In this document: piece after piece, positions 2,371-32,551 of the stretch
How the letters are laid out: every line of letters begins with the position of its first letter
Position numbering within the stretch: position 1 is the stretch's first letter
DNA from: an uncultured Oleiphilus sp.
GTDB lineage: Bacteria; Pseudomonadota; Gammaproteobacteria; Pseudomonadales; Oleiphilaceae
Length of the DNA: 64,000 bases
NCBI GenBank assembly: GCA_913020045.1
Contig: CAJWBE010000002.1
Span: 62,001 to 126,000, forward strand
Direction: 5' to 3'
The notes under the pieces: generated by a model
Told to the model about the DNA's origin: nothing
Database searches by the model: none
Seen by the model: the letters and a program-made list of their open reading frames with translations, nothing else
Program-made: the position numbers and the translations under genes

Positions 2371-3696
2371 CTATTTTTGGATGCTGTCTGGGGCGTCTAG
2401 GCTATCTGACCCTTCAAGCTCTAAATTTTCTAGACCAAGTGCAACAATTAGCTCTTCGGTTACACGCGTTTGTGCGACGAGTGAATCAACGATGGTTTGA
2501 ATAATTTGATGTCCTTCTAAATTATTCTCTCCGATCAAGACGTCAAAGGTATTTCCCTTAGCGGCTTCATCCACCATCGCCTGCATCGCCCGCTCTGTTG
2601 TTGCTAGCGCGGCCAGCATTTTTGCGTCTAAGGCTGGGTTTGATTGGGCGATAAGTTGTGACAGTGACGCGCCTTTGGTTAGGGTCCCTTGAGTTGATAG
2701 GTATTCACCGCGATAGATATTGCTAATTCCCTTGGCGTCGTAGTAATGCGACCAATGGGTATTGTCCGAAAAGCAGTCATGTTCTTCTTCTGGGTCATTT
2801 AACATGAGCCCAAGCTTGATGCGTTCGCCTGCAAGCTCACCATAGGCGAGACTACCCATGCCAGTCAGCATGGTAGATAAACCGCCAGCATCGCCTTTCG
2901 CGATGAGCTGTTGGTATGCCTCACCGCCGACTTGCCAGCTTTCAGTCATGTCTTTGAGGTCTTTAACGATTAGATTAGTTGCGGCACTAAGGTAAGCACG
3001 GCGACGTTCACAATTACCACCGGTGCAAGCTGTCACCGAATAGTCGCTAGCTGGACGAGCGCCCGCTCCGGGAGCGGTGCCGTTCAAGTCTTGGCCCCAT
3101 AACAGAAACTCCACCGCGTGATAGCCGGTCGCCACGTTCGATTCGACTTCGTCTAGTTCATGCAGGGTGTTGGCGAGTAGATTTGTGTCAATAATTCGTA
3201 CGTCGATTGTGTCCCCGCCTAGCTTGATCATCGGGTTGGCGATGATGTTCGCGGTAAAAAAGGGATTTTCGTCGGATTCACTTCCATACGAAGCGTCAAC
3301 ATAGTCAATCAAACCTTCATCCAGTGGCCATGCATTTACTTTTCCTTCCCAATCGTCAACTGCCTCATTGCCAAAGCGGTACACTTCAGTTTGTTGGTAG
3401 GGCACTCGGGCTTGAATCCAAGCAGATCTTGCGTCTCCTAAGCGAGCATCCGTCGGCTCAGCCAGAAACTGATTGACCGTTTTTTCCAAGGCTTCGGCTG
3501 TAACAAGTGCGTCGTTATACTTTTGCTGAGCCAAAGAGATATAGTTTTGCACAACTTCGTGCTGACTGACGTTGGCCTTGCTTGGGTCGTTTGTTTCATA
3601 GGCGTCTAGGGTATTACATGCGCTCAATGTTGCCACGATCGTTGGAACTACCAGCAAGCGAAAGAGGCTCGCGTTGCCTATATAAATTTGTTTCAT
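2371..3696 (-). CDS. Imelysin family protein (iron-regulated lipoprotein-like)
   Basis: 441 aa; N-terminal lipobox-like LSAC; imelysin features (GYHAVEFLLWGQDLNGTAPGAGARPASDY). Confidence 0.9.
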   Translation of the reverse strand: MKQIYIGNASLFRLLVVPTIVATLSACNTLDAYETNDPSKANVSQHEVVQNYISLAQQKYNDALVTAEALEKTVNQFLAEPTDARLGDARSAWIQARVPYQQTEVYRFGNEAVDDWEGKVNAWPLDEGLIDYVDASYGSESDENPFFTANIIANPMIKLGGDTIDVRIIDTNLLANTLHELDEVESNVATGYHAVEFLLWGQDLNGTAPGAGARPASDYSVTACTGGNCERRRAYLSAATNLIVKDLKDMTESWQVGGEAYQQLIAKGDAGGLSTMLTGMGSLAYGELAGERIKLGLMLNDPEEEHDCFSDNTHWSHYYDAKGISNIYRGEYLSTQGTLTKGASLSQLIAQSNPALDAKMLAALATTERAMQAMVDEAAKGNTFDVLIGENNLEGHQIIQTIVDSLVAQTRVTEELIVALGLENLELEGSDSLDAPDSIQK

Positions 3697-26608: not shown

Positions 26609-26862
26609 AGATTACCTCTTGGTCTTTGCTGTTATGTTCAGTCGTTTTTCGCGACTTTATGAAGCGGTGTGGTTTCACACCAGAACGGTTACTTTTCTCA
26701 GTTTCCTAATAACAATACGGAGTATTTGTCTAACTGGATCTATAACAAGAGCTGCTCAGCAAGATGAGGCGAGGTGCCTAAGGTAGGATCTATAGAGGTT
26801 TAGGTCGACTTTGAAAGAGATACTGTGAGGGACGCGAATAATTCTACGAAAAAGGCAATACA

Positions 26863-26914: not shown

Positions 26915-27682
26915 TTAAGCTTGGGTCTTGCGACGCGCAAAACCAAGTCCCATTAGACCAAGGCCTAGCAATGCTAGCGTACCTGGCTCAGGCACTTCAG
27001 AGTATTCAATCGCTTCAACATAGCTTGAGTGGTCGCCCCAGCCTGTCGCCGCAACAGCGTAATAGCGATATGCTGAATCAAGACCTGTACTCAAAAAATC
27101 AAGGTCTGTAGGTTGCTGCTGGCCGCCAGCAAAGATGCTTGAGTATTTATCGCCATCTGTACTGACGAAAATATTGAACAATGCATCAGAACCGTCTTTT
27201 AGGTTGCCATCATTATCGGATTTAACTTTCTCTCTGTGCCCGCCGTTAAACCAAACCGTATCGAGAATTGTGTCAATGCCGAAGTCAAAAAATAGAACTT
27301 CATCATTGTTTGAGCCAGAACCAACGTTAGACTCAATGCCGTCGCCTGAGAACGATGAGTAGCTTACCGCACCCAAACCAGCATTGCCCCAATCTTGATA
27401 AACCCGACGACTAGAAATGTTGTCAGATAGATCAAACATTCCGCCAGCAGGTTTTGCTAGGTTAAAGCCTTTTGATTGACCGGCCGTTACAACAAAATCA
27501 TTGAACGTTAGCGTTTGGCCAACAGGTTCTGTTCCGTTAAATGTTGCGCCAGCTCCGCCAGCAGTACCCGTTTCAGCAAGTCCGCCATTTTTTGTTGCGC
27601 CGTCAAACGAAACGATGCCTGCATTGGCTGTTGCACCTAACAAGCTTAAGCAAGCTACTGCAGTTAGATTTTTAAGTTTCAT
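26915..27682 (-). CDS. PEP-CTERM sorting domain protein
   Basis: C-terminal VPEPGTLALLGLGLMGLGFARRKTQA; signal peptide from MKLKNLTAVACLSLLGATANA (ATG at 27682). Confidence 0.9.
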   Translation of the reverse strand: MKLKNLTAVACLSLLGATANAGIVSFDGATKNGGLAETGTAGGAGATFNGTEPVGQTLTFNDFVVTAGQSKGFNLAKPAGGMFDLSDNISSRRVYQDWGNAGLGAVSYSSFSGDGIESNVGSGSNNDEVLFFDFGIDTILDTVWFNGGHREKVKSDNDGNLKDGSDALFNIFVSTDGDKYSSIFAGGQQQPTDLDFLSTGLDSAYRYYAVAATGWGDHSSYVEAIEYSEVPEPGTLALLGLGLMGLGFARRKTQA

Positions 27683-28062
27683 GATAATAATTCCAAGTTT
27701 GTCATATAAGTTATAGTGCAACCGGCTGCCTACTATGTAAGATTGAGAATGTAGGCCCATGGCTTTCCGTCACAGCCTCGCGGCTGGTTTGGCTACTGCT
27801 AAAAGCACTCAATAATTAGCACAATGCGCGCCACTGTTATTAATGTCATTGAAAACAATCGCTTAAGCGCAGCAATCTTTGTACTGTGTAAAGTTGTTCG
27901 ACACTATATTCTCTTTGTAAAAACGCTTCTCAAATTGAAGAGATTTGGGTGAGTTCGGCACAATATAAGTGCTGCGCGTTAGAGTAAGGTTAAGGTGATA
28001 AGAGGGGTTTATTAAAACCAAGGAAGGATGACAGTCTAGGGTTTTGGCGAATGGTGTACTGC

Positions 28063-28821
28063 TTACCAGGCGATGTCTTGATGTTGCCAGTCTTGGTAGC
28101 TGAGTTGGCCATCGACTGGTGCGCTGTTCATCAAAGTCCAAAGTTGTTGGGCGACGAATTCTGGGGTGAATAGTTTTTCAGGCGGGACGTTCGCTTGAAA
28201 AGGTTCCGACAGTTTACTGTTAGTGGTGCCTGGGTGGAATGCGATAAGTTTTACGAGAGGGTAGCGCCGCTGGAATTCGATAGCGAGGGTTTTGAGCATC
28301 ATGTTAAGCGCCGCTTTTGAGCCTCGGTACGTATACCAGCCACCCAATTGGTTGTCTGCAATACTGCCAACTCGCGCAGAAAGAACGCTAATGACGGTTT
28401 TTTGATTACGGTTAAGCAGCCCCGCGAACTTGCTAAGCCAGAGCATCGGCAAAAACGTATTGATACTAAACACCTCTGCCAGCGAATCGTAAGCTAAGCT
28501 ATCGATTCTTTTTTCTGGCGCGACAGATTTGGCCTCGTCATGTAATTTTCCTGTGGCTATAACGATATGGGTTAAAGCGCACCCGTGCTGTTTAATATGT
28601 TTGCACACCTTGCCGATCGAATTTTCGCTAGCGTCACTTTCAAGCCATATTACTTTCGAATTGGACGCTGAGACGGCCGCACTAGATCGTCTTGCGGTTC
28701 TACTAATGGCAAACACTTTGTCGAGTGAAGTATCCCTTTCAAAACGCTCCAGCATGGCATTGCCGATGGCGCCGTTCGCTCCAACGACAATCGCTGCACG
28801 TTCAACTCTCATCTCGCTCAC
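28063..28821 (-). CDS. SDR family protein, CsgA/C-factor-like
   Basis: VVGANGAIGNAML, YRGSKAALNMM; overlaps folM start. Confidence 0.85.
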   Translation of the reverse strand: MSEMRVERAAIVVGANGAIGNAMLERFERDTSLDKVFAISRTARRSSAAVSASNSKVIWLESDASENSIGKVCKHIKQHGCALTHIVIATGKLHDEAKSVAPEKRIDSLAYDSLAEVFSINTFLPMLWLSKFAGLLNRNQKTVISVLSARVGSIADNQLGGWYTYRGSKAALNMMLKTLAIEFQRRYPLVKLIAFHPGTTNSKLSEPFQANVPPEKLFTPEFVAQQLWTLMNSAPVDGQLSYQDWQHQDIAW

Positions 28822-29525
28822 TTCAAATGTCTCCCGCCATTTAGGTGGATAACTTGCCCTGTTATGTACTGGCTATTCAATAAGAAATCGACGGCGTTAG
28901 TGAATTCTTGCTCGCCCCCTTCATGAGGGAATAGTGACTTTGAAAGGGCTTTCTTCCGATAGGCTTCGTCATCATCGGCATTGAACAGCATTAGCGCTGG
29001 AGCGATTGAATTCACCTTTACACGAGGTGCCATGGCGCTCGCAAATGAAAGAGACATATTGTCCATTGCAGCCTTACTGGCGGCGTAGCCGATATGTTTC
29101 TTGCTACCTTTGCTCGATACATAATCTGAGATATGAATAATGTCCGCAAATGGTTGTGGGCAAGCTTTCAGCAAAGGACCGAGTGCAACATTGAGTTGGT
29201 AGGGCACACTAACGTGGACCGTCATCATTTGATTCAGATGCGCGCTTGTGTGATCAACACCATCAGGCAACCACTCTGAAGCGTTGTGGATAATTCCCCT
29301 GAGGGATTCGAACTCATCAAGTATCGAAGCGATCAAGGTCTCGACTTGGTCTTGTTTGTAAAAGTTACATTGATAGACCTTTGCGCCGAGCATTTCTAAG
29401 TCATCAATACTGGCTCGGCGCGTGCGGTAAGTACCAATCACACTGATGCCTTGACTCAGAAGATGTTTGGCAAGCGCAAGGCCGAGTCTTTGTCCAAGAC
29501 CGGTGATTAAAATGGGTGATGTCAT
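28818..29525 (-). CDS. folM: Dihydromonapterin reductase (FolM)
   Basis: [30 protein letters not shown]; adjacent to folE/folX. Confidence 0.85.
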
Positions 29526-30175
29526 TGTTGACGGCTGTTCTGAAGAAACTCAGCGCGGGTTTGAGGGTTGGTCTTGAAGCTACCACCCAGCGCCGTGGTC
29601 GATGTTTCAGAGTTTGCATCCATAATTCCGCGGGATTTGACGCAATAGTGCGTTGCATCGATAGACACCGCGACGTTTTCAGTACCCAGCAGTGTTTGAA
29701 GGGCGACTAATATTTGTTGCGTTAAGCGTTCTTGTACTTGTGGGCGTTGCGCGAAGAATTTTACGATGCGATTGATTTTGGACAAACCAATAATCTTTTG
29801 CTCCGGAATGTATGCAACTTTTGCCAGACCGTCGATCGTAATAAAGTGGTGTTCACAGGTGCTTATTAGGCTGATATTACTGACCTTGACCATTTCATCG
29901 ACGCTCATTTTATTGTCGATAACTGAGATCTTCGGGAAGTTATCGTAGTTCAACCCAGAAAATATCTCATTCACATACATTTTTGCGATGCGATGAGGGG
30001 TTTCTTTTAAGCTATCATCGTTTAGGTCTAGCCCTAAGGTTTCGACGACATCTGTTAGCAAGCCTTTGATTCGTTCATACTTTTGCTCTGGGTTCAGCGG
30101 TGAGGGCGTCAGTGGGGTCTCCAGACCTTTTTCGATCAGTGTATCTCTTACCAATATTGCTTCTTGACTGGACAT
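29522..30175 (-). CDS. folE: GTP cyclohydrolase I
   Basis: [29 protein letters not shown]. Confidence 0.96.
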
Positions 30176-30176
30176 A

Positions 30177-30563
30177 TTAGCTTGCTTCCTTGAGTGTATT
30201 TGGATTGGCGTATTGCAGTGTCAATGAAACTGAGTCGGCGAATCGTAGTGCATGAGGTTTGTCGATAGTCACTTTTGCGAAGCTGACTGAGGAGTGCTCC
30301 GCACAGATATCTAAAGCGTCTTTTACGAGTTTTTCCAACAGTTTGAATCGACCGTTTTCGATGTGTGCGATCATTTTCTTGGTCACATTTTTGTAATTCA
30401 ACGCTTGCGCTACATTGTCTTCTTCACACGCTTCCTCAGCGGGGTAGTGGATTTCCGCATTGATGATGATGTCTTGCTGTTTTTCTTGCTCTTCAGGGTT
30501 AAAGCCAATGAAGGTTCGCAGTCTTAAGTTAGTGATATTGATAATGGCAGAATATGGGTTCAT
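30177..30563 (-). CDS. folX: Dihydroneopterin triphosphate 2'-epimerase
   Basis: [33 protein letters not shown]...[12 protein letters not shown]...[10 protein letters not shown], closely FolX-like. Confidence 0.9.
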
Positions 30564-30598
30564 GTCTTGGTTCCGATTATTATTAGTCTGATGATGAA

Positions 30599-31204
30599 TT
30601 ATGGTTGGACTGCTAGCAGCGTTTGATCAATTGCGCTGGTTACGATTTCCGAGTTTGGTGTGTCGCGACTCGAAAAGTGCTGAACCAGCCTTCCATCTGG
30701 GCCTATCAAGTATTTATTAAAGTTCCAATTCGGCGCTTTAGATTGCGTCGCGAGCTGCTTGAAAAGAGGATGCGCATTTTCTCCGGTTACGTTTACCGGT
30801 TCCGTCATCGTGAAACTCACACCAAAATTCTTGTAACAGACGTCCGCGATCTTGCGGCTGTCGCTTGCTTCTTGGTTAAAGTCATTAGAGGGAAAGCCGA
30901 TTACGGTCAGCTGCTCAGAATAGCGTTGATGTAGCGTTTCAAGACCACCAAATTGCTTGGTAAAACCGCAATGGCTGGCTGTGTTTACGACGAGCACGCT
31001 TTTGTTTGCAGTCAACTGGCACAGGTTCACGTCTCGATTGCTATGCAATGCTTTAAGAGGCTGTTGCTGCCATGATTGGCAGGGATGCGCGGCCACTTGT
31101 TTGTTGGTGCTGGTTGTTTTTTTCGTATCGATTTCGCTAGCAAACAGGCAGGCGCTTAACATGCTTGCGAAGAAGGTTAGAAGGGCTTGTTGAATGATTT
31201 TCAT
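30599..31204 (-). CDS. Glutathione peroxidase family protein
   Basis: NTASHCGFTKQFGGLETLHQRY, GFPSNDF, exported (signal peptide). Confidence 0.9.
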   Translation of the reverse strand: MKIIQQALLTFFASMLSACLFASEIDTKKTTSTNKQVAAHPCQSWQQQPLKALHSNRDVNLCQLTANKSVLVVNTASHCGFTKQFGGLETLHQRYSEQLTVIGFPSNDFNQEASDSRKIADVCYKNFGVSFTMTEPVNVTGENAHPLFKQLATQSKAPNWNFNKYLIGPDGRLVQHFSSRDTPNSEIVTSAIDQTLLAVQP

Positions 31205-31207
31205 GGT

Positions 31208-32425
31208 TTATCCTTGTGGTTCGTTTGCAGCCGAAGGGTCTAGATCGTGTTGCAGTTTTGCGATTGCTTTTTGGCTGATTTGTCGCACGCGTTCTCCTGA
31301 CAGAGAAAGCGTTTCACTAATTTCTTTCAAGGTGTAACTCTTTGACGTTCCGAAGCCATACCGCATTCTCAATATCGTCTGCGTTCGCTGATCTAGGCGC
31401 TGAAGCGCATGTTCAAGTATTGCTTTGTGAGTTAATAAATGGGTTGAGAAGTCTTGAGCATTTGATTCCAGTGCCTGATGATCTTCTGGGTTGACGCTGC
31501 TCGTATACAGGTCTTGAGTATCGGCGCTGGGCGCTATATTTGCCACGATGTGGGCCTGCGTATATTCGAGAGAAGCGGGCAAGCACTTTTCTAATTCATG
31601 TCCTCTTAATGGCCGCGCTAACTGCTGTTCTAGCGTCATGCGCGCCTTGTCGACAACTGCCTTTTCTCTGAGCTGGCGGAAAGGCTTTCGAACTAAGTGA
31701 GTCTGTTTATCTAAGGCGTTGTGTATTGATTGACTTATCACGCGATAGGCGTAGGTTGAAAACAGGAATCCTTTTGCTGGTTCATACCGTTCAATCGCTT
31801 TCATAAGTCCCAAGCTACCTTCTTGAACTAGGTCTTCATGTGGTAAACCCAGAAATCTAAAACGGAAGGCGACACTGTAGACCAGCCTGAGATTGGCATT
31901 GGTTAGTTTGTTGCGTTGCGCACGGTACTGCTGCTGCGATGTTTTGAGGGCATCAAGAACTTTGTAATGCACGCTAGACCGACTAAGCGTTCTGCCCTGA
32001 CCTGATCGTAAGGACTGAGATACAGCGGAAACGATCATATGATGGGGGACAGACCATTCGGCTAGTCGTCGTTTTAAACGTTGTTGGCGCTGCCGAAACC
32101 CTTGCGACTCTTGCAAGTAATAGACGGTTTCTAAGGCATCAATGAGACCCAGAAGATCAAGCGCAGCAGCGGTTCGCTCAGTGTCGATTGTTTGGCTATA
32201 ACGTTTGGCCTCTTCTTCCGTCAATTCAACAATGTCTTTCAGAAGCTCCAGAGAGTGAGCGTCTGCAGTTAACAGGGCTAATTGCGATAGGCTGGATGAA
32301 CGCATGTTTTGATAGGCGCGTTGCTCTTGCTTTACTGTCATCCTTGGCAGAGCATACGCTTGCTTGATCGGTGAATCAGGTTCACCGTCGGCGGAGTAGG
32401 TTAAAGGTTCAGAAGCGTGTTTCAT
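31208..32425 (-). CDS. Sigma-70 family RNA polymerase sigma factor (alternative, RpoD-related)
   Basis: Region 2 LVQEGSLGLMKAIERYEPAKGFLFSTYAYRVI; region 4 LKEISETLSLSGERVRQISQKAIAKL. Confidence 0.92.
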   Translation of the reverse strand: MKHASEPLTYSADGEPDSPIKQAYALPRMTVKQEQRAYQNMRSSSLSQLALLTADAHSLELLKDIVELTEEEAKRYSQTIDTERTAAALDLLGLIDALETVYYLQESQGFRQRQQRLKRRLAEWSVPHHMIVSAVSQSLRSGQGRTLSRSSVHYKVLDALKTSQQQYRAQRNKLTNANLRLVYSVAFRFRFLGLPHEDLVQEGSLGLMKAIERYEPAKGFLFSTYAYRVISQSIHNALDKQTHLVRKPFRQLREKAVVDKARMTLEQQLARPLRGHELEKCLPASLEYTQAHIVANIAPSADTQDLYTSSVNPEDHQALESNAQDFSTHLLTHKAILEHALQRLDQRTQTILRMRYGFGTSKSYTLKEISETLSLSGERVRQISQKAIAKLQHDLDPSAANEPQG

Positions 32426-32440
32426 CGGGCTACGTTCAGT

Positions 32441-32464
32441 GGAGTATGTATCAACGAATACTCC
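32441..32464. promoter_or_regulatory. Inverted repeat just upstream of sigma factor start
   Basis: ggagtat-N10-atactcc, perfect 7-bp arms, 16 nt from ATG (rc). Confidence 0.4.
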
Positions 32465-32551
32465 AAAGACCGTGAATTAGATCACCTAAGCCGCGAACTT
32501 ATTCGCGAATGATGCTCTGATGATCTATCTATCGGTGCCGTCTTGAGGGCC

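Follow-up and report, generated by a model that had tools for sequence, protein, structure and literature searches.

The sigma-E regulon of Rhodobacter extends to rpoHII and folE2 (PMC6852236; PMC7074977). The RpoE2–ChrR regulon of Shewanella oneidensis takes in a periplasmic glutathione peroxidase (GPx; pgpD), photolyase–CFA genes and a predicted phr–CsgA SDR pair, and the sigma-E/ChrR promoter published for this species, TGATCC-N16-CGTA (PMC4336711), has the same form as that published for P. syringae (PMC5507510). In Pseudomonas mendocina, folM-folE-folX are light-induced alongside genes for a photolyase and UfaM, and LitR binds the promoter region (PMC9758184).

Here we describe a block of six genes in a 64,000-nucleotide stretch of DNA (the window) from an uncultured Oleiphilus sp. 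that draws together elements of these systems. The parts are already known but the combination of sigma factor, GPx and fol genes is new, and a search of the available literature yielded no account of such a link between a sigma factor and fol genes. From sequence comparisons, we put at roughly two in three the probability that the block is a photo-oxidative (singlet oxygen/organic peroxide) stress operon lying downstream of the genome's ECF sigma-E factor and its partner ChrR.

The six-gene block and its products

The block consists of six minus-strand open reading frames (Table 1), just where the earlier note had located them and with the gaps (about 3, 35 and 1 bp) and two 4-bp overlaps that it had given: the computed spacings, from sigma gene to SDR gene, are 3, 35, 1, -4 and -4 bp. 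In gene order, the products belong to the Pfam families sigma-70 (regions 2 and 4), GSHPx, FolB fold, GTP cyclohydrolase I and, for the last two, SDR. Whilst the sigma factor, GPx and terminal SDR pass no NCBIfam equivalog cut-off, all three Fol proteins do so: FolX scores 184 bits (cut-off 152), FolE 365 bits (cut-off 202) and FolM 335 bits (cut-off 249). FolM also displays the pteridine-reductase motif TGX3RXG (as TGLGQRLG) and the catalytic YX3K motif (as YAASK). The proposal, made in the earlier note, that FolE, FolX and FolM form a full monapterin pathway is thus borne out; sequence models support a complete tetrahydromonapterin pathway, of the right subfamilies, within the operon.

A second FolE, encoded on contig C19 and 38% identical to the operon FolE, is probably the housekeeping enzyme. 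There is also a second folX gene (L069:1489-1869, contig C1), whose product scores over the equivalog cut-off and which lies in the same region as the photolyase–CFA cluster described below, with a similar folX paralogue in the corresponding region of a related genome, G004 (L075:17143-17541).

The GPx is 58% identical to its counterpart in G001, another genome of the genus, and has a hydrophobic, signal-like N-terminal segment (read by eye); the protein is probably exported. Downstream of the block lies a gene for an acyl-CoA dehydrogenase (ACAD), which is probably a member of the same unit, since the SDR and ACAD genes are separated by only 93 bp in G001 and 87 bp in G002, although in the window a PEP-CTERM protein gene intervenes between them. 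We considered ACAD as a candidate for the furan fatty acid desaturase UfaD but dropped this identification because the literature describes UfaD as a relative of the phytoene dehydrogenases/desaturases. A c-di-GMP-I riboswitch (RF01051; window 27714-27803, minus strand; 49.3 bits, gathering threshold 35) is found at the start of the PEP-CTERM gene, the true start of which is probably the downstream MKLKNL, at about 27682.

Table 1 Features of the operon, its surroundings and the ECF–ChrR pair
Feature	Position	Strand or contig	Remarks
Sigma gene	32425-31208	minus	diverged RpoD-like sigma factor, 405 aa, narrow family
GPx	31204-30599	minus	PF00255, 82.6 bits
folX, dihydroneopterin triphosphate 2'-epimerase	30563-30177	minus	NF008418
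folE, GTP cyclohydrolase I	30175-29522	minus	NF006824; 219-position model type
folM, dihydromonapterin reductase	29525-28818	minus	NF005066
Terminal SDR oxidoreductase	28821-28063	minus	nearest NCBIfam model PRK09009, below cut-off
PEP-CTERM protein gene	26915-27760		riboswitch at its start
ACAD (acyl-CoA dehydrogenase), probable further unit member	26608-24839	minus	adjoins SDR in G001 and G002
Putative sigma-E/ChrR-type promoter, sigma operon	32459..32484	minus	TGATCT-N17-GTA, followed by TTC
Putative sigma-E/ChrR-type promoter, ACAD	26716..26741	minus	AGATCC-N16-CGTA
ECF sigma and adjacent ChrR	L070:2235-2822 and 2789-3433	contig C1	

Conservation in the genus and the nature of the sigma factor

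The genome that carries the window (G000) was compared with other genomes of the same genus, including G001, G002 and G004. The earlier note had suggested a conservation analysis of the six-gene block, and linkage proves to be conserved in two other species of the genus: all six genes are found in G001, in the order kinase-cmoA-cmoB-[chemotaxis-like ORFs]-sigma-GPx-folX-folE-folM-SDR-ACAD-purA, and five, without GPx, in G002, in the order cmoA-cmoB-sigma-folX-folE-folM-SDR-ACAD. In both, the block is placed between cmoAB and the ACAD gene, with the SDR gene as its conserved last member. In G004, GPx-folX-folE-folM occur at a different chromosomal place (L037:8265-10643), with neither sigma nor SDR gene; in this genome the metabolic part of the operon stands by itself.

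The sigma factor falls below the equivalog cut-offs for RpoD (133 bits, cut-off 555), RpoS (134, cut-off 379) and RpoH (99, cut-off 323) and, in a phylogenetic tree, belongs to a four-member clade (99/99 support) that stands apart from the RpoD, RpoS and RpoH of its own genome. Its predicted structure is of moderate confidence (mean pLDDT 73) and matches RpoD chains across most of its length. Going by this model, with its RpoD-type fold, and by the presence of regions 2 and 4, the protein is RpoD-like (sigma-70) in the broad sense. In region 2, all four members of the clade have other residues (RV, RV, RI and RA) in place of the Trp-Trp pair seen in RpoD and RpoS, which, in the light of what is generally known of sigma factors, suggests altered promoter opening.

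Searches of the order (392 genomes) and of the class (369 genomes), which scored few candidates per genome and may miss members, brought to light no further clear member of the clade. The best other full-length match, in G346, lies outside the clade and not near fol genes, and when a genome collection was scanned with the sigma alignment, the matches listed were all unrelated group 1/2 sigma factors. G010 carries a distant homologue inside a photolyase–CFA gene row that diverges from ECF–ChrR genes. The top NCBIfam match, the anti-phage sigma factor MzaA, was rejected because its score of 163 bits falls below the cut-off of 800.

The ECF–ChrR system and upstream promoter-like sites

As the earlier note had remarked, the window contains neither a photolyase nor a LitR-like gene: the two photolyases of the genome are encoded on contigs C10 and C1, and the B12-binding (LitR-type) domain has no hit in the window. 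The contig C1 cluster (L069/L070) comprises a photolyase, transmembrane and SnoaL-like ORFs, an SDR, an FAD oxidoreductase, DUF1365 and CFA/UfaM, and genes for an ECF sigma factor and a ChrR-family anti-sigma factor adjoin its photolyase end. The anti-sigma factor scores 203 bits with TIGR02451 (cut-off 124.5), and the zinc-binding motif HX3CX2C can be read in its sequence. By these sequence criteria the genome holds a canonical photo-oxidative system (ECF11-type sigma-E/ChrR), located on a different contig from the operon. G001, G002 and G004 have comparable clusters in which ECF and ChrR-like ORFs could be read, and photolyase and DUF1365 occur in four of the five genus genomes. In G037, genes for GPx, a DCC thiol oxidoreductase, a small membrane-like protein, folE-folM and ECF–ChrR all lie within L046:8016-13692; several genes of this stretch bear a sigma-E-like site.

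The motif upstream of the operon was first spotted by eye and tested afterwards. Two scoring matrices were used, one made from the published sites and one from photo-oxidative cluster sites of relatives, neither of which includes the operon sites. The putative promoter precedes the sigma ATG by 59 bp, with counterparts at -57 in G001 and -60 in G002, and TGATCT-RAWTC...GTA is the only clearly conserved island upstream of sigma in the three-genome alignment. It is a weak match to the consensus, departing from it in beginning TGATCT and in having, in the -10 element, A/A/T before GTA where the published sites have C. With the cluster-site matrix, the shuffle p values in the three genomes are 0.004, 0.001 and 0.016; with the published-site matrix they are a modest 0.016, 0.016 and 0.014, which Fisher's method combines to about 3e-4, treating the three genomes as independent.

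The values given next for further sites come from the published-site matrix. For the ACAD site, none of 500 shuffles was as good in the window, G010 or G008, and p is 0.002 in G001. The fol genes and GPx are preceded by the same motif also in other genera, none of 500 shuffles being as good for folX-folM-folE in G010, folE-folM and GPx in G037 or folE in G039. The result is the same for folX in G001, within the genus. The GPx-folX-folE-folM unit of G004 has a weak site only (p 0.028), and no sigma-E-like site was found at the housekeeping folE (p 0.68), at purA or cmoA, or at folE of G042 and G045. Across the genome, TGATCY-N16-CGTA occurs 14 times and a reversed-pattern control 11 times; there is no excess, and the motif alone is therefore not diagnostic. 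A TGATCT-N16-CGTA sequence is also present 87 bp upstream of a cupin-like protein gene on contig C21 (L204), a possible further regulon member. A sigma-70-like promoter was looked for just upstream of the operon and not found. A candidate operator, a 7-bp inverted repeat upstream of sigma (GGAGTAT...ATACTCC), was dropped since neither G001 nor G002 retains it.

Competing readings and comparison with known systems

Gene content, conserved order, the ECF–ChrR–photolyase cluster and the motifs found upstream make it more likely that the operon is a branch lying downstream in the sigma-E/ChrR regulon, to which motifs and gene neighbourhoods link it. By analogy with the known sigma-E/ChrR system, singlet oxygen or peroxide would inactivate ChrR, and the sigma-E so released would transcribe the operon from 32484-32459 and ACAD from 26741-26716. 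Exported GPx would then remove peroxide outside the cytoplasm, whilst the extra FolE, together with FolX and FolM, would convert GTP to tetrahydromonapterin, with the SDR also being supplied. The RpoD-like sigma factor might act as a second tier, widening or sustaining the response.

The earlier note had instead envisaged a self-contained stress regulon, in which the operon's own sigma factor would autoregulate the operon and drive the whole response alone, with no ECF sigma factor. The single operon, its conserved linkage and the stress theme stand; 'self-contained' does not, because photolyase and anti-sigma genes, within an ECF sigma–ChrR–photolyase–CFA cluster, are found elsewhere in the genome and sigma-E-like sites precede both operon and ACAD. 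Autoregulation would fit the position of the sigma gene as first of the unit, and the variant shared by the three upstream sites (TGATCT, no C before GTA), which sets them apart from most sigma-E sites, could mark another sigma factor. We nevertheless regard it as unlikely: the G004 unit exists without the sigma gene, and sites close to the sigma-E consensus precede fol genes of G010, G037 and G039 that adjoin no sigma gene of this kind. Light control of the LitR/CarH or LOV type is more doubtful still, even though light induces this trio of fol genes in P. mendocina, as sigma-E-type sites are present instead and the genome's B12-binding matches fall in frames that, at 684-1259 aa, are longer than a LitR protein would be (a degenerate class II LitR could escape such a search).

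Least probable of all is that the block makes a pterin cofactor for an aromatic amino acid hydroxylase and that the stress genes are linked to it by chance. FolM and FolX do make the phenylalanine hydroxylase cofactor in other proteobacteria, according to the literature, and the earlier note had mentioned this use. Set against this, the GPx and sigma linkage is conserved and the Biopterin_H family (PF00351) has no match in any of the five genus genomes, of which three have a completeness of about 98% or higher, whilst a match was obtained in a control genome. The link to phenylalanine hydroxylase was accordingly dropped, and the pterin must therefore serve something else. If the sigma-E/ChrR reading is true, the operon would offer a genetic system for asking what monapterin does in cells without phenylalanine hydroxylase. 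We tentatively propose, as a possibility that is less likely than not, a two-tier cascade in which sigma-E/ChrR would switch on a sigma factor derived from RpoD but changed in its promoter-melting residues, and monapterin would contribute directly to photo-oxidative defence, as an antioxidant or unknown cofactor, rather than to aromatic hydroxylation.

Among the closest parallels is the cascade that leads from sigma-E/ChrR to RpoHII in Rhodobacter sphaeroides, where the sigma-E regulon, like the one proposed here, comprises a second sigma factor together with a GTP cyclohydrolase, a photolyase and an SDR. The second sigma factor is RpoD-like here rather than RpoH, the cyclohydrolase is FolE rather than FolE2 and, unlike in R. 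sphaeroides, sigma and metabolic genes are combined in one operon. Were the proposed reading true, singlet-oxygen defence cascades would have arisen with different second sigma factors (RpoH in Rhodobacter, an RpoD-like one in Oleiphilus), and sigma-E would recurrently target GTP cyclohydrolase in alpha- and gammaproteobacteria. The Shewanella oneidensis RpoE2–ChrR system resembles the present one in photolyase–CFA and SDR, in the type of the putative promoters and in a GPx that is periplasmic there and probably exported here, but its regulon as listed includes neither fol genes nor a second sigma factor. Pseudomonas mendocina, finally, has the same three Fol enzymes within one operon; there, however, the operon is under the control of class II LitR and a LOV protein, and is without sigma or GPx genes.
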